From Polaromonas glacialis (lineage in GTDB: Bacteria > Pseudomonadota > Gammaproteobacteria > Burkholderiales > Burkholderiaceae_C): a stretch of 64,000 nucleotides of DNA. Every line of letters starts with the position of its first letter. Position 1 is the first letter of the stretch. Of this stretch, positions 4,832 through 48,552 are shown one piece after another. Both the position numbers and the translations under genes were made by a program. The notes beneath the pieces were generated by a model that searched no databases, was not told the origin of the DNA, and saw only the letters and a program-made list of their open reading frames with translations. Location: the NCBI RefSeq assembly GCF_000709345.1, contig NZ_KL448323.1, positions 2,424,346 through 2,488,345 of the forward strand, in the 5' to 3' direction.

Positions 4832-5344
4832 TTGCACTTCACCCACCGGCTGCGCGCCCTGCTTCTTCACGGATTTCTTTTTGCTACTCTTTTAATAGCT
4901 GGCTGCGCCCGTCCTGTAAGCGGAAACGGCATAAAAGTCGTAAAAAATGAGTTGTGGACAGGGCGCATGAGTTTGAATATCAAAAGCGAGCCCGAGCAGT
5001 CTTTCTCGGCCGGCTTTGAACTCAAGGGCCGGTCGGAGCGCGGTGAACTGACACTGATCAGCCCGTTGGGCAATGTGCTCGGCGTGCTGCGCTGGGCGCC
5101 CGGCGAAGCAGAACTGGATTCGGGCAACCGCAACATCCAGCGCTTTGACTCCGTCGATGCCCTGATGGCGCAGGCCACGGGCGCGGCCGTTCCGCTGTCT
5201 GCGCTGTTCGCCTGGCTGCAGGGCGACAACGCGACGGCCAGTGGCTGGTCAGCCGATCTTTCACGGCACGGCGAAGGGCGCATCGCCGCCACGCGGATGC
5301 AGCCCATGCCCCAGGCCGACCTTCGCGTCGTGCTCGACCAGTAA
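4832..5344 (+). CDS. lolB: Outer-membrane lipoprotein localisation factor LolB
   Basis: LolB is the outer-membrane lipoprotein that accepts lipoproteins from LolA and inserts them into the outer membrane. The start is a TTG at 4832, and the lipobox LIAG-C places the lipidated cysteine at residue 25. After it come the family features: LWTGRMSLNI, F-E-L-K-G and the LISPLGNVLG strand. The length of 170 residues is slightly short but within range. The order lolB-ispE-prs is widespread in proteobacteria and supports the name. The region coding for the lipobox and the next 15 residues is a copy of the AT-rich palindromic repeat (4881-4948), which is unusual. Confidence 0.88.
   Translation: MHFTHRLRALLLHGFLFATLLIAGCARPVSGNGIKVVKNELWTGRMSLNIKSEPEQSFSAGFELKGRSERGELTLISPLGNVLGVLRWAPGEAELDSGNRNIQRFDSVDALMAQATGAAVPLSALFAWLQGDNATASGWSADLSRHGEGRIAATRMQPMPQADLRVVLDQ
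4881..4948 (+). repeat. AT-rich palindromic repeat, copy a (inside lolB)
   Basis: Begins with GCTACT-N5-AATAGC and continues with GGCTGCGCCCGT, the same order of blocks as the intergenic copies at 9220 and 54884. It codes for the end of the LolB signal peptide, the lipidated Cys and the following linker. Confidence 0.6.
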
Positions 5345-9215: not shown

Positions 9216-9219
9216 AATT

Positions 9220-9286
9220 TACTATTATTTTGATAGCTGCTTGCGCATTCTGGCCGTGCGCAAAGCGCCTATTTGATGCTCAAATG
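9220..9286 (+). repeat. AT-rich palindromic repeat, copy b (intergenic)
   Basis: Clear family member between pth and the ferredoxin gene. It has an ACTATTATTTTGATAGC palindrome, then GCTTGCGC, GTGCGCAA and CCTATTTGATGCTCAAA. It is used here as the reference copy. Confidence 0.8.
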
Positions 9287-10170: not shown

Positions 10171-10845
10171 TCAGGCCGGCAGGGGCTCTGCCGGCAGATC
10201 GTTTTTGGCCAGCAAATGAAAATGCACCGCGCCGGCCTTGGCGCTGCGGTGGACCTTGAGCCCCAGCGCCTGCAATTCGTCGTCCTGCCAGGCGCGTGGC
10301 GCTTCCAGGTACACCAGGCCGGTCGGGCTGATGGCCTGGGCAGCCGCCTTGAGCGCCGGCTCGAACACGTTCGAGTCGAAAGGCGGATCGATCAGCACCA
10401 GCTGCATGCTGCCGGCGTCCAGCCGCTTGAGCGCGCTCAGGCCGTCGCCGCGCTCAATGCGCACCGCGTCGGCCTTGAGCCTGGCCTGCACGGCCTTGAG
10501 CTGCACGACCAGCCCAGGGTCCTGCTCGCACAGCAGCACATCGGCGGCGCCGCGCGAGGCGGCCTCGAAGCCGAGCACGCCGGTGCCGGCGAACACGTCG
10601 GCGCAGCGCCAGCCGGTCAGGTCCTGGCCGAGCCAGTTGAACAGGGTTTCGCGCACGCGGTCGGGCGTGGGGCGCAGGCCGGAATGGTTTGGCACGGTCA
10701 GCTTGCTGCGCCGGTACTGTCCGCCGATGATGCGGATTTCGCCGGACGGCTTGAGGTGGGCGGTGCCCTTGGGCTTGACGGTGTTGGCCTTGGCCGAAGG
10801 CTTGGGCGCAGTCTCGGGGGCGATGGGTTTGGGTGTGTATTTCAT
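10171..10845 (-). CDS. rsmD: 16S rRNA (guanine(966)-N2)-methyltransferase
   Basis: Methylates G966 of 16S rRNA in the small subunit. The SAM-binding motif VFAGTGVLGFEA and the catalytic DPPF motif of amino-methyltransferases are both present, with the family block RPTPDRVRETLFNW ahead of them. The first 35 residues are Pro/Lys/Ala-rich and are an extension compared with the E. coli enzyme; the catalytic part starts at GEIRIIGGQ. The start codon overlaps the stop of the upstream M16 gene by 4 bp, which argues for translational coupling. Confidence 0.93.
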   Translation of the reverse strand: MKYTPKPIAPETAPKPSAKANTVKPKGTAHLKPSGEIRIIGGQYRRSKLTVPNHSGLRPTPDRVRETLFNWLGQDLTGWRCADVFAGTGVLGFEAASRGAADVLLCEQDPGLVVQLKAVQARLKADAVRIERGDGLSALKRLDAGSMQLVLIDPPFDSNVFEPALKAAAQAISPTGLVYLEAPRAWQDDELQALGLKVHRSAKAGAVHFHLLAKNDLPAEPLPA

Positions 10846-12287
10846 TTTGCGGCTCCGAGAATAACAGTCACCATTTTGTCGGGCTGCAGCTTGCGCGCAA
10901 AAGCCGCCTTGATGTCGGCCACGGTGACTTTATTCACCTGCTGCGTCCAGGTGTCGAGGTAGTCGAGCGGCAGATCGTTCCAGGCGATGCCGGCCAGGTT
11001 GCCCAGCAGCTTGCGGTTGCTGTCGATGCGCAGCGCAAAGCCGCCGACCAGGTTGTCCTTGGCGGCCTTCAGTTCCGCTTCGCTCGGGCCGCTGGCGACA
11101 AAATCACCCACCACCTGGCGCGCGATCTGCAACGCCTGCGCCGCCTGGTCGGGCCGGGTCTGCAGGCCGACGGTGAAGCTGCCGGCATGCAGGCCCGGCG
11201 AGAACGAGCTGGAAATGCCGTAGGTCAGTCCGCGCTTTTCGCGCACTTCATTCGTCAGGCGCGAGACAAAACCGCCGCCGCCCAGGATGTAGTTGCCGAC
11301 CGTCAGCGGGAAGTAGTCGGGGTCGGCGCGCCTGAAGCCGGGCTGGCCGATCAGCACATGCGCCTGCGCCGAATCAAAGGGAATGGCTTTTTCCTCCGCC
11401 TGCGCGAGCGGCGCCACATCGGGCACGGCCGGCAGCGGCGGCAGGCTGGCGCAGGGCACCGAAGGCAGGCGCGACAGCAGCCGCGCGGCCATCGCATCGG
11501 CCTGTACACGCGTGACGGCACCGACCATGCTGATGCGCGCGCGGCAGGCGACGACGCCTGCGGCATGCGCGGCCTGCAGGTCCGCGACGCTGATGGCCGC
11601 CAGCGTCGCTTCGGTCATTTCAAAGCCATAAGGATGCTGGCCATAAACGGCCTTTGAATAGGCCCTGCCCACCACGCTGGCCGGGCGTGTGTAGGACTCC
11701 TTGAGCGCGGCCTGCAGGCGCTGGCGTTCGCGCTGCCAGACCGCGTCGGGATAGGACGGTTCGGCGATCTGGCGCGCCGCCAGCGCCACGGCCTGGTCGA
11801 GCAGCGCCGGGTCGGTCAGCGAGCGCAGCGAAAAGCTCATGCGGTCGGATGACGCGCTGGCCCCGAACTGGCCGCCCAGGTCGGCCCAGGCTTCGCCGAG
11901 CGCGTTTTCGTCCAAGGCTGGTGCCCCCACGCTTGTCGCTTCGCGTACTGCGCTGCCCCCCGAGGGGGCCGCTGCGCCTGCAATCTGGCTGAGCCGGTCC
12001 TGCGGCCCCTGCTGGTGCATAGGGGAAGCCCTTACTCCTTTTTCGAGCATGTTTGCCGTCATGCTTGCCAGCCCGGCCTGTGCGGGCGGGTCGCGCCGGC
12101 TGCCGGCGTCAAAATCTATTTGCACATCAACCATGGCAATGGCCGGGCTTTCGACCAGATAGACCTTCGCGCCACTGGCCTGCGTCCAGTGCTGGACGGG
12201 AATCACCGCCTGCGCCGAAATATGAACAAAAAGGCCTGTTACGCACACTGCTATGGCGCGAGCAGCTATTTTTTTAGTAGCAATCAT
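10842..12287 (-). CDS. M16-family protein, non-catalytic partner
   Basis: A 481-residue, M16 peptidase-like exported protein. It lacks the zinc motif HxxEH but keeps the C-terminal substrate-site region SRLTNEVREKRGLTYG, as seen in the inactive R/Y partner of M16 heterodimers. The true partner is the catalytic gene just upstream. The ATG at 12287 opens a signal peptide ending in AQA. Two repeat elements lie inside it: the signal peptide is coded by copy c of the AT-rich palindrome, and a 95-bp element is inserted in frame so that about 38 extra residues separate NMLEKGV from ALDENALGEAW. The frame stays open throughout, so I do not call it a pseudogene. Confidence 0.88.
   Translation of the reverse strand: MIATKKIAARAIAVCVTGLFVHISAQAVIPVQHWTQASGAKVYLVESPAIAMVDVQIDFDAGSRRDPPAQAGLASMTANMLEKGVRASPMHQQGPQDRLSQIAGAAAPSGGSAVREATSVGAPALDENALGEAWADLGGQFGASASSDRMSFSLRSLTDPALLDQAVALAARQIAEPSYPDAVWQRERQRLQAALKESYTRPASVVGRAYSKAVYGQHPYGFEMTEATLAAISVADLQAAHAAGVVACRARISMVGAVTRVQADAMAARLLSRLPSVPCASLPPLPAVPDVAPLAQAEEKAIPFDSAQAHVLIGQPGFRRADPDYFPLTVGNYILGGGGFVSRLTNEVREKRGLTYGISSSFSPGLHAGSFTVGLQTRPDQAAQALQIARQVVGDFVASGPSEAELKAAKDNLVGGFALRIDSNRKLLGNLAGIAWNDLPLDYLDTWTQQVNKVTVADIKAAFARKLQPDKMVTVILGAAK
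11923..12017 (-). repeat. 95-bp GC-rich repeat, copy 1 (in frame within M16 gene)
   Basis: Matches the copy at 19655-19749 at 88 of 95 positions by eye, with the two copies in opposite orientation on the plus strand. It contains the palindrome GCCCCC-CGA-GGGGGC. The M16 reading frame runs through it. Confidence 0.9.
12218..12284 (-). repeat. AT-rich palindromic repeat, copy c (M16 signal peptide)
   Basis: On the minus strand it reads GCTACTAAAAAAATAGC, GCTCGCGCC, GTGTGCGTAA and GGCCTTTTTGTTCATA, block for block like copy b. It codes for nearly the whole signal peptide of the M16 protein. Confidence 0.7.
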
Positions 12288-12319: not shown

Positions 12320-13819
12320 TCAATGCCGGCCACCGCTGGCCGGTGTGCTGGCGGGGCGCGGCTTGCGGTTCGGGTCCAGGGGCTGCGGCAGCAGGGTGGA
12401 CACGGTCATCTGGTCGTCGCCGAAGTATTTGCCGGCCACGGCCTGCACCTCTGGCGCCGTCACCGTGCGCAGCTGGGCAATCAGGCGCGTGCTGGCATCG
12501 AGCGGCAGGCCCTGCACCCAGTTGGAGCCGAGTTCGCGCGCCTGGCTGAACACCGAGTCGAGCTTGTAGGTCTCGCTGGCCACCCACTGCGTCTTGACGC
12601 GCTGGAGTTCGGCTTCGCTGACGCCGTCACGCGCCACCACGGCGACCTGCTGGCGCAAGGCGTCGGCCACCTGCTGCGTGGTTTTGCCATCGGCGGGCAC
12701 GCCGTCGAGCGTGAACAGCTGCGGCCCCCGGCCCATCAGGCCGCTGGAAGCGCCGGCGCTGTCGGCCACGCGTCCGCCCTTCTCGCCCTGCCCCTGCACC
12801 AGCGCGCGCTCCAGCCTTGCGCCGCTGTAGCCGTCGAGCACGGCCGACAGCACCGTCAGCGCCAGCGCCTCGCGGCTGGCGGCGGCGGTGGGCGATGCGG
12901 CACCTAGCGCTGCCAGGTCGGCCGGCTGCACCTTGGGCACCTTGAACGCCATGCTCACATACGCCTGGCTGGCGGGCGCCTTGAGGTCGATGCGGCGCAG
13001 GCCCGCCTGCTCGGGCTCGGTGCGCGGCTTGCGCTCGGGCACGGGGCGCTTGGCAATGGCGCCATAGTATTTCTCGGCCAGCTTCCGGACCTGCGCCACG
13101 TTGACATCGCCGGCCACCACCAGGGCGGCGTTGGCCGGAACGTACCAGCGTAGGTAGAAGCTGCGCACGTCGCCCGGCGTCATGGCGTCCAGGTCGCTCA
13201 TCCAGCCGACGATTGGGCGCCGGTACGGCGACGCCAGAAAGGTGATGGCGCTGGCCTGCTCATGCAGCATCGCGCGGGGCGACTCCTCGGTGCGCATCCG
13301 GCGCTCCTCCTTGACCACCTCGATCTCGCGCCTGAACTCATCATCTAGCCACTGGCTGTGGCCAAAACGGTCAGCCTCCAGGCGCATCACGTCTTCGAGC
13401 TTACCGGCCGGAATCTGCTGGTAATAGCCGGTGCTGTCGCTGCTGGTGAAGGCATTCTCCTGGCCGCCCAGCGCCGCCACGCGCCGGGAGAACTCGCCCG
13501 CCTTGACGGTCGGCGTGCCCTTGAACATCATGTGTTCGAGCACATGGGCGACGCCCGACGTGCCATCGACCTCGTCCATGGCGCCGACCCGCACCCAGAG
13601 CATGTGCGCCACCGTCGGCGCCCGGTGGTCGGGCTTGACGATGACCGTCAAGCCGTTGGCCAGCTGGAACTGCTCGACCGGCGCGGGCGCCTGGGCAAGG
13701 GCCACCTGGCCGGGGCCGGCGATCAGCGCGGCCGACAGCAGCAGCCTTGAAAAACCGCCCGTCGGACGCCGGAAAAACAATAGTGGGGGCTTGACGCCCA
13801 TCTGCTTGAGGTGTTTCAT
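12320..13819 (-). CDS. M16-family zinc metallopeptidase, catalytic partner
   Basis: A 499-residue exported insulinase-type peptidase. The inverted zinc motif HxxEH is present as HVLEHMMFKGT near residue 93, followed by the distal glutamate region (GQENAFTSSDSTGYY). The N-terminus has a signal peptide with the hydrophobic core LLLSAALIAGPGQVALA. The non-catalytic partner follows 32 bp downstream, giving the usual two-gene M16 pair. Its start lies only 28 bp from the divergent ftsY start. Substrate unknown. Confidence 0.93.
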   Translation of the reverse strand: MKHLKQMGVKPPLLFFRRPTGGFSRLLLSAALIAGPGQVALAQAPAPVEQFQLANGLTVIVKPDHRAPTVAHMLWVRVGAMDEVDGTSGVAHVLEHMMFKGTPTVKAGEFSRRVAALGGQENAFTSSDSTGYYQQIPAGKLEDVMRLEADRFGHSQWLDDEFRREIEVVKEERRMRTEESPRAMLHEQASAITFLASPYRRPIVGWMSDLDAMTPGDVRSFYLRWYVPANAALVVAGDVNVAQVRKLAEKYYGAIAKRPVPERKPRTEPEQAGLRRIDLKAPASQAYVSMAFKVPKVQPADLAALGAASPTAAASREALALTVLSAVLDGYSGARLERALVQGQGEKGGRVADSAGASSGLMGRGPQLFTLDGVPADGKTTQQVADALRQQVAVVARDGVSEAELQRVKTQWVASETYKLDSVFSQARELGSNWVQGLPLDASTRLIAQLRTVTAPEVQAVAGKYFGDDQMTVSTLLPQPLDPNRKPRPASTPASGGRH

Positions 13820-19522: not shown

Positions 19523-19654
19523 GTCTAAAAAGAGGCGGACGTTGCCGCGCTTAATGAAGTGTTGGAAGTGCAGGGTCCGTACCACTGTCTTCGCCAAGCC
19601 ACGGACGCAGCAGCACCCCCAGCGTCGCACATCGCCAAGCGTGATGGGGTTCCA

Positions 19655-19749
19655 CACCAGCAGGGGCCGCGGAACCGGCTCAGCCGGGCCGCAGGCGCAG
19701 CAGCCCCCTCGGGGGGCAGCGCAGTACGCGAAGCGACAAGCGTGGGGGC
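19655..19749 (+). repeat. 95-bp GC-rich repeat, copy 2 (intergenic)
   Basis: Lies between ctaA and the Sco-like gene, starting 3 bp past the stop codon of the latter. It is 88/95 identical to copy 1 inside the M16 gene. It also stays open in the frame used by copy 1. Confidence 0.9.
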
Positions 19750-19752
19750 CAT

Positions 19753-20469
19753 CTACCGGCCTTCCTTGTCCCAACTGCTGGATGCGCGCAGCAGGCGGTC
19801 CAGGTCGCGCTTGGCCTTGGCAGCGGCCTCGGCATCCATGTCGGCGGGAAAACGCATCATCAGGTTGCCCAGCGGATCGACCAGGTAAAGATGGTCCTGC
19901 ACGCGTTTGCCCGGCTCTGCTGCCAGCCACTGCGCCAGATCGCCGGGCTGCACGCGCAGCACGGTGGCAGCCGCCAGGGCTGGCAGCAGAGCCGGACGTA
20001 CCGGGATGTCGTCATCCACCAGCCAGACGCGGTCCAGCCGATCCTTTTCCCGGCCCAGCGATTCGCGCAGCTGACGCTGGAAATACAGGTTCTGCTCGCA
20101 TCGCGTGTCGCAGGCACCGCCGGCAACGCTCAGCAGCAGCCACTGGTCTTTCAGCGCCGTCAGCGTGCCGGCATTGCCGTCCAGCGTCCGCGTGGCCAGG
20201 GCCGGCAAGGGACGCTGCGGGTTGATCAACTCGCCAAAGTTGCGGCGACCCTCGGGCCTGACCACGTAGTACATGAAATAGGACGCCACGACCGGGCTGG
20301 CGCAGACCAGCAGGACAAGAATCATTTTCCAGCGGCCCGAGCGGGTATCGGCCGAACGCACGCCGGACGAGTTGATCGCCGGCATGGCATGAACGGTCAG
20401 GCCCAGCGGCTGATCCTGGGCGGTGAAAGCGGATTGCAGGGCGGAAGCGTCAGAGGAATCTTTTGTCAC
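19753..20469 (-). CDS. Sco-like membrane-anchored thioredoxin-fold protein
   Basis: A 238-residue protein with one membrane span (residues 48-70) and a periplasmic thioredoxin-like domain. A CxxxC motif (CDTRC, residues 120-124) and a later His at 193 in DHLYLVDPLGN line up with the copper-binding CxxxC and His of SCO1, although overall similarity is low. It sits between surf1 and ctaA in the oxidase locus, which supports a role in oxidase assembly, possibly in CuA or CuB metallation or thiol reduction. The exact function is inferred. Confidence 0.75.
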   Translation of the reverse strand: MTKDSSDASALQSAFTAQDQPLGLTVHAMPAINSSGVRSADTRSGRWKMILVLLVCASPVVASYFMYYVVRPEGRRNFGELINPQRPLPALATRTLDGNAGTLTALKDQWLLLSVAGGACDTRCEQNLYFQRQLRESLGREKDRLDRVWLVDDDIPVRPALLPALAAATVLRVQPGDLAQWLAAEPGKRVQDHLYLVDPLGNLMMRFPADMDAEAAAKAKRDLDRLLRASSSWDKEGR

Positions 20470-27191: not shown

Positions 27192-28094
27192 TCAACCCGG
27201 TGCGCCCGAACCGCTCTGCAGCATCCTGCGCATGTCCTCGACCGACACGGAACTGAGCGCGCTCACCTTGAATTTTGGCCTGGCCTTCAGCGCATGCCCA
27301 TAAATGACCTCGAACGTCAGCGACAGCCGGCCGTCGCTGCCGGTCAGCTGCGTCGCCAGTTCTTGCGCCAGTTTTGCCTTCCACGCCCTGCCCCGCAAGC
27401 CGGGAAAGCGGGCCGGATGGAAATTGCGGCCAAGCTCGCCAAGCTCCTGCAGCAATCGCTCGGGCGTTTCATACGTCAGCGTGATGCGCTCCATGTCCAT
27501 CACCGGCTCGGCAAAGCCGGTTTGCACCAGCATGTCGCCCCAGTCGTGCATGTCGGTCAGTTCATGGCCGGCCGGTGGCCAGCCCAGGCGGGCGTACAGC
27601 GAACGCAACTCCCTGGCGGTATCGGGTCCGAGGCATGAAAACATCAGGAATCCATCGACCTTCAAGGCGCGGTGCCACTGGGCGAGCAGCGCCTGCGGAT
27701 CGGCCGATTCGTGCAGCGCCATGTTCGCCCACAGCATCTCCACGCTGTCCGGCGGCGGCATCTCGAAATGCACCGGCGCGGCGCGCCACTGGCTCGGGCT
27801 CCACCAGGGTTTCGCTATATTTTTAATAGCTACTTGCGCCCGTCCTTCTTGCGCTTCAGCAACAAAACATGCTGAATCCGGATAGATTTTCGCCAGTTCG
27901 GCATGCGCCTGCAGTCCGCCGCGCAAGGCGCCCCAATGCGCCCAGGCCTGCGGCCTGAGCTTGATCCACTCCAGCCGGCCCTGCATGCGGCTGGCGACTT
28001 CCTCATGCAGCCAGGGAGAAGTCAGGGGTGCCGTTCGCTGCCAGCGGCTGACGGCGTTGGGATCGAGCGTGGGCGGGCGCGAGGTGGTGGTCAT
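27192..28094 (-). CDS. BioC-like methyltransferase with degenerate SAM motif
   Basis: A 300-residue class I methyltransferase-fold protein resembling BioC (malonyl-ACP methyltransferase), with the later motifs intact: MLWANMALHE, FLMFSCLGPDTARELR and TDMHDWGDMLVQTGFAEPVMD. The glycine-rich motif I (DxGxGxG) is missing; the corresponding stretch reads RPQAWAHWGALRGG. Copy f of the AT-rich palindrome codes for the segment just after it. No other biotin gene is nearby; comF is divergent. The catalytic status is uncertain. Confidence 0.75.
   Translation of the reverse strand: MTTTSRPPTLDPNAVSRWQRTAPLTSPWLHEEVASRMQGRLEWIKLRPQAWAHWGALRGGLQAHAELAKIYPDSACFVAEAQEGRAQVAIKNIAKPWWSPSQWRAAPVHFEMPPPDSVEMLWANMALHESADPQALLAQWHRALKVDGFLMFSCLGPDTARELRSLYARLGWPPAGHELTDMHDWGDMLVQTGFAEPVMDMERITLTYETPERLLQELGELGRNFHPARFPGLRGRAWKAKLAQELATQLTGSDGRLSLTFEVIYGHALKARPKFKVSALSSVSVEDMRRMLQSGSGAPG
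27812..27880 (+). repeat. AT-rich palindromic repeat, copy f (inside BioC-like gene)
   Basis: GCTATATTTTTAATAGC then TACTTGCGCCCGTCCTTCTTGCGC, a strong match to the first two thirds of the family. It is read antisense and in frame by the methyltransferase gene (VAIKNIAKPW). Confidence 0.7.
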
Positions 28095-48450: not shown

Positions 48451-48487
48451 TTGCTGCCCATTTCCCGGCAGCCGAATATTCAGGCTG

Positions 48488-48552
48488 CTCTGTAAACAAT
48501 AGCTGGCTGCGCCCGCCCACCTTGCGCCAGAGCCTTAAAACACTTAAAAATG
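48488..48552 (+). repeat. AT-rich palindromic repeat, copy k (partial, upstream of proB)
   Basis: The right arm AATAGC is followed by TGGCTGCGCCCG and TTGCGCC, close to copy a. The left arm of the palindrome is lost. It ends at the proB start codon. Confidence 0.6.

Follow-up and report, generated by a model that had tools for sequence, protein, structure and literature searches.

An M16 peptidase-like gene in a 64,000-nucleotide stretch of Polaromonas glacialis DNA (hereafter the window) is crossed by a 95-bp element that occurs a second time in the same window, raising the question of what kind of sequence this is and how a gene comes to read through it. The gene (10842..12287, minus strand) is matched by PF05193, PF00675 and 3amj_B, and it is of the inactive-subunit type, without the catalytic HxxEH motif. 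Its neighbor (12320..13819, minus strand), an M16 gene with an HVLEH motif, is the probable catalytic partner and has no match to the element's covariance model inside it. A previous reading of the letters alone (the sequence-only reading) had placed the two copies at 11923-12017 and 19655-19749 with 88 of 95 positions identical, and had held that the M16 frame runs through the first copy without a stop. Coordinates, length and identity were all borne out, and the frame is indeed open. The two copies, each 95 nt long, lie on opposite strands and are therefore inverted with respect to each other. Copy 1 lies within the M16 gene in the gene-sense orientation (11923..12017, minus strand), reads ...QQGPQDRLSQIAGAAAPSGGSAVREATSVGA... 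and is covered by a model match at 11921-12015 (101.5 bits). Copy 2 (19655..19749, plus strand; model match at 19657-19751, 106.7 bits) is likewise open in the same frame, as had been claimed, but it is intergenic and follows, after three bases, the TAG stop codon (19753-19755) of a gene for a PA0111-family redox disulfide protein (19753..20469, minus strand; below the curated NCBIfam cut-off), to which it is antisense. Clear covariance-model scores within the window were confined to these two copies. A weak match adjoining copy 2 (19567..19653, plus strand; 14.7 bits, E 0.39) may be a decayed tandem copy. The window also holds a second repeat family, built around AATAGCTGGCTGCGCCCGTCCT, at 4879-4946, 9217-9253, 27810-27846 and 48483-48550, its members being 62-81% alike to the reference copy.

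The sequence-only reading had named a restriction of the element to these two places, with none in related genomes, as evidence against its own view. Searches of the genome gave 48 and 51 blast matches for the two window copies (40 candidates scored in each) and at least 124 covariance-model matches at E<=0.01, 98 of them at E<=1.5e-7, and the element was found in other genomes as well. Chance is excluded as the source of the window pair by these blast and model matches. The figure of 124 is a lower bound, since 150 of 10,241 candidates were scored. All the matches listed fall on contig C1, which contains the window; C1 (4,136,691 bases) is the largest seen of the 27 contigs of this 5.28-Mb genome and, judging from its 4.14 Mb, is probably the chromosome. 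Some copies stand in tandem, for example three at 3096723-3097020 with a spacing of ~102 nt.

Among genomes of the genus, 79 of 87, counting our own, were matched at E<=1e-6 (up to 48 candidates scored in each), and 160 of 299 genomes of the family, again with our own, were matched at E<=1e-5 (14 candidates scored in each). An order-wide draw of 300 genomes gave five with matches at E<=1e-6, namely our own and four of its family; with 14 candidates scored per genome, we take this to mean that the model reaches near relatives only. Genome G064 gave 141 matches at E<=1e-6 and genome G024 gave 22. A search of 59 loci for a LexA-like motif near the element, as a mark of Bordetella, found none. A search of three loci against Rfam returned no match at E<=0.1, and the plasmid collection yielded a single Variovorax record, covering 54% of the query.

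The element is GC-rich (mean 76% over 71 copies), and RNAalifold predicted three main hairpins from an alignment of 37 copies from our genome. When that alignment was scored against the predicted structure, 98.5% of 960 cells paired, compared with 33-45% for structures slid by 1 to 3 columns, a comparison that favors the predicted structure because it was derived from the same alignment. Changes on both sides occurred in 8 of 26 pairs, a count reached by 1 of 500 shuffles, and 48 cells carried such a change against a shuffled mean of 10.4. The hairpins of the element thus show compensatory changes. Folding of the two window copies, on either strand, was no better than that of shuffled sequences (z -1.76 to 0.54). 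A shorter subfamily, present at loci L309, L361, L366, L367, L373 and others, has a conserved 15-nt core, GCCGGGCCGCCCCAA, with 33 occurrences; in 14 of these the core sits between the arms of a stem of 7-9 pairs, and the stem sequence varies from copy to copy.

The M16 gene is not the only one that the element has entered. Among the 98 best copies in our genome (E<=1.5e-7, which excludes the 26 weakest of the 124 matches), 19 lie in frame within conserved genes, and in every case the open frame has Pfam matches. A copy was assigned to a gene when the frame was open through the element and codon use on both sides was coding-like by a home-made codon score. Seventeen copies passed, and two more, at 89642 and 3374344, were included on the strength of Pfam domains flanking them, with the Fer2 match at 89642 slightly below its cut-off. 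As this census took open frames only, copies that break a gene would go uncounted. The copy at 3559065 has no Pfam match on one strand and lies on the other within GlnE, which scores above its NCBIfam cut-off, and it was accordingly placed in a gene. By Pfam or NCBIfam, the host genes encode a molybdopterin-dehydrogenase type flavoprotein, a fatty-acid hydroxylase, a MoCF-domain protein, an FAD-linked oxidase, a FemAB-like protein, FdhD, Mpl, a cation ATPase, PriA, a family 9 glycosyltransferase, a ligase-associated helicase (two copies), an alpha/beta hydrolase, a sulfate permease, an M20 peptidase, RsmA, a CMAS-type methyltransferase, GlnE and the M16 protein. Mpl, PriA, RsmA, the ligase-associated helicase and GlnE scored above their NCBIfam cut-offs; the M16, FdhD, MoCF and FAD-oxidase proteins fell short of theirs. 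In several hosts, including the ATPase, RsmA and the hydrolase, a single Pfam match spans the element. In genome G064, 3 of the 78 best copies (of 141) are assigned to genes under the same codon score, applied with no Pfam filter; judged by peptide, two of them appear to be in the same genes as in our genome, those for RsmA and the flavoprotein.

Several further copies lie close to this class. A tandem pair (3026438 and 3026586) is found within an open frame encoding an alpha/beta hydrolase, upstream of its Pfam match, and failed the codon score; it was counted neither as in-gene nor as outside. Both members of the pair, which runs from 3026438 to 3026679, read in the antisense frame favored by the in-gene copies and may extend the N-terminal part of the hydrolase. 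The copy at 2961931-2962025 immediately precedes a UbiA domain, is again in the favored frame, and may likewise extend an N-terminal part; it was counted among the copies outside genes. Two other candidate open reading frames had no Pfam match.

We then compared filled and empty sites, using flank pieces to collect orthologous loci from six related genomes for 18 sites (GlnE was outside this set). Seventeen sites could be mapped, the exception being the sulfate permease, for which there was no mapped orthologous flank. Of 55 site-by-locus comparisons (51 distinct site-genome pairs), 53 gave a length difference divisible by three, the two exceptions being one FdhD and one PriA comparison. At 15 of the 17 mapped sites an orthologue was at least 87 nt shorter and lacked the element by a simple motif search, a search that overlooks copies whose sequence has changed, examples being those in the glycosyltransferase and RsmA genes of genome G019. 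Several sites were filled in another species too, and in the fatty-acid hydroxylase gene of G019 the element lies in the opposite orientation. MITEs are marked by terminal inverted repeats and target-site duplication; in these comparisons and in flank tallies the ends of the present element look ragged. The element is thus inserted in open frame, is absent from orthologues, and is present at the same site in several species. The in-gene copies are presumably translated in the cell, and the host proteins appear to tolerate the added peptide of about 30 residues. The resemblance to Rickettsia palindromic elements proposed by the sequence-only reading is supported by this number of in-frame copies, obtained by the genome-wide search and count that it had called for.

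Copies within genes also share their reading frame. When codon phase was referred to a single base position within the element, one frame accounted for 12 of 13 sense copies (binomial probability 5e-5 after a threefold correction for choosing among frames) and one for all six antisense copies, GlnE included (0.004 by the same calculation), so that 18 of 19 use the frame favored for their orientation; in these statistics the two copies of the helicase gene are not independent genes. The exception is one of those helicase copies, which uses another sense frame that is itself open in 53 of 56 copies outside genes. The in-gene copies of G064 (two of two sense, one of one antisense) are in the same two frames. 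Among copies outside genes, the favored frames are open in 55 of 56 (sense) and 53 of 56 (antisense), while the other frames are open in 41 to 53 of 56. Since the favored frames are the most stop-free of each orientation, openness explains the bias in part. The combined share of lysine and arginine is also lowest in the favored frame of each orientation. The simplest cause of the bias would be selection against bad frames; an insertion preference tied to codon phase is a possible alternative.

For the M16 protein, whose nearest named relatives are from Polaromonas, alignment with orthologues as the sequence-only reading had proposed showed that the insert is missing from most of them, the close orthologues in G019 and G024 among them. 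The estimate of about 38 extra residues held as to the insertion but not as to its size: against these two genomes, which have the closest element-free orthologues compared, the net gain is 31 residues (93 nt), since the insert took the place of a few residues native to the loop. The first core helix of the inactive M16 subunit is followed by the loop that carries the insert, and in the one protein modelled the added stretch fits a flexible loop. This loop segment has 81 residues here as against the usual 50, a length found exactly in 39 of 73 parsed named orthologues (80 named loci, of which seven gave no parsed loop). Element-like loops were found in 9 of the 73, with the window not counted, and every one seen carries the element in the same orientation and the same frame. 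In one Polaromonas genome (L069 and L259), the M16 loop reads as two tandem element copies, both in frame.

These shared features could be explained by one ancient insertion, followed by many losses or by overwriting through gene conversion, with no repeated insertion at all. Identical orientation and frame are what a single ancestor would leave, and the element-like label is somewhat clustered on the M16 tree (5 of 500 shuffles were as low). The same tree, however, demands seven changes of label, at least three of them forced by starred branches (a quick tree method was used). The loop of Variovorax paradoxus ISL-79 (L309) moreover holds the shorter subfamily, which is missing from its near sister L316, and different M16 loops carry different subfamilies of the element. 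We therefore consider a single ancient insertion unlikely, and conclude that the M16 loop has probably served as an insertion site several times, always with one orientation and one frame. It is considerably less likely that the inserted peptide is functional, for instance in binding a partner or substrate, and has been kept by selection. Element-like loops do occur in several lineages in the same frame, and one protein (L069) has two copies; yet the majority of orthologues do without the insert, those closely related in G019 and G024 among them, M16 loops vary in length and decay, and similar peptides are found in many unrelated proteins. The insert is most likely near-neutral for the M16 protein.

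For the 77 copies of our genome that lie outside genes, neighboring genes were called by the same home-made codon score. On the GTGGGGG side, 65 of these copies have a gene that converges on the element, and for 45 of the 77 the stop codon of that gene falls between -3 and +5 bases from the end of the model match. Ten further copies have the stop at 81 to 118 bases with another copy in between. On the opposite side of the element, the nearest stop codon is 22 bases off, and one gene start is at 0. Genome G064, where the census took the 78 best of 141 copies and omitted 63, gave a similar picture, with 60 converging genes and the stop in the same range in 41 of 75. In the two genomes surveyed, the element is most often found immediately downstream of a gene's stop codon, in antisense orientation to that gene. 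The stop codon next to copy 2 could be followed across the genus: a model match abuts the orthologous stop in 12 of 14 genomes (L456-L469), among them a weak one in G032 (35.7 bits), and by eye an element is present in 13 of the 14. G025 has what looks by eye like an altered element, with a model match starting ~87 nt away, and G029 has no element at this stop. Since the element stands behind the same stop in 12 of 14 genomes, copy 2 is either old and kept or has been placed repeatedly. Presence at orthologous places was shown for this one site.

Taken together, we are confident that the element is a high-copy repeat with three hairpins, likely a member of the beta-proteobacterial repeat elements (BREs), that lies behind stop codons and sometimes in frame within genes, and that it has added a net 31 residues, most likely near-neutral, to the M16 protein. 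The family appears to be non-autonomous and would be spread by a putative mobilizing machinery, landing most often directly behind stop codons and occasionally entering coding sequence by insertions that, as seen here, are multiples of three. Such in-gene insertions may be kept if the frame is preserved and the flexible peptide can be endured. A more ambitious reading, which we offer tentatively as plausible but short of probable, is that a free-living lineage has its own protein-coding repeat, independent of that of Rickettsia, a stop-adjacent 3'-end module kept at orthologous places, with one frame per orientation shaped to read as a harmless flexible peptide, which has repeatedly entered conserved genes, several times at the same permissive loops.

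Hairpin repeats with RAYT-like helper genes are a known kind, and our genome has one Y1_Tnp gene, most genomes of the genus have one to three PF01797 matches, and that family was found in 50 of 61 genomes searched; but an ordinary REP-type element mobilized by such a RAYT-like (Y1 transposase) gene is the least probable of the explanations considered, as there are no model matches in 8.5 kb around our own Y1 gene, only 2 of 33 Y1 loci hold the element (L151, 46.2 bits; L145, 37.6 bits), and the unit is larger and has several hairpins. RAYT as the mobilizer is thus disfavored, with no linkage of the repeat to the transposase gene seen in the 8.5 kb of our own genome and few cases across the 33 loci. 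The locus of the single RAYT-like Y1 transposase gene of our genome (L137, 2514000-2522500) has GGGGTCAGATTCCAATT in its flank, unlinked to the 95-bp element.

The spread of an in-frame repeat through conserved genes is best known from the Rickettsiales, and here it is seen in a betaproteobacterial genus. Because dozens of related genomes are at hand, filled and empty sites of one gene can be compared, so that two old questions can be put to the test: by what route a DNA element with secondary structure acquires the capacity to encode a peptide that proteins tolerate, and whether proteins simply put up with such insertions or gain new loops from them. There is also a warning in these results, in that an insertion in a loop of a Comamonadaceae protein may turn out to be a repeat. 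Our literature searches, which covered open-licence papers, found no paper on in-frame BRE peptides; within that literature, what seems to be new is how widely the element has inserted in frame into conserved genes, that it prefers certain frames, that it recurs at the same protein sites and that it adjoins stop codons.

Of the systems to which the element can be compared, REP elements with RAYT transposases are high-copy hairpin repeats that are mostly intergenic. The present element differs from these in its larger unit, in the lack of any linkage seen to a RAYT-like gene and in its in-frame intragenic copies; REP units are given as 20-40 bp palindromes in the portion of the literature drawn on here (PMC3733652). 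The closest in behavior are the Rickettsia palindromic elements, structured sequences of 105-146 bp that, in the accessible part of PMC2229807, are both intergenic and fused in frame into conserved protein genes, as the present element is inserted in frame in conserved genes. They belong to another bacterial group, however, and the likeness drawn here is one of behavior. We compared their intragenic habit with the in-gene copies described above. To our knowledge, the abutment of stop codons has no counterpart among the Rickettsia elements.

The element itself is probably a BRE, likened to that family by its description rather than letter by letter (PMC3110155). BREs were described in 2011 from Bordetella pertussis and other Betaproteobacteria and, as far as the accessible text goes, are GC-rich chromosomal elements of ~90 bp (75-91 bp at full length in Bordetella), single or in tandem with no or few nucleotides between, some of them wholly within coding sequences; among Comamonadaceae, Polaromonas sp. 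JS666 has 29 copies and P. naphthalenivorans CJ2 has 4, as counted with a query and threshold other than ours (PMC3110155). The 95-nt unit, the placement of all 124 listed matches on C1, the tandem copies such as those at 3096723-3097020 and the 19 of 98 copies inside coding sequences all agree with that description. In-frame translation, a preferred frame, stop abutment, covarying structure and the reuse of protein sites, on the other hand, go unmentioned in the accessible text of that paper (PMC3110155), and our results suggest that this little-studied family has a role at gene ends.
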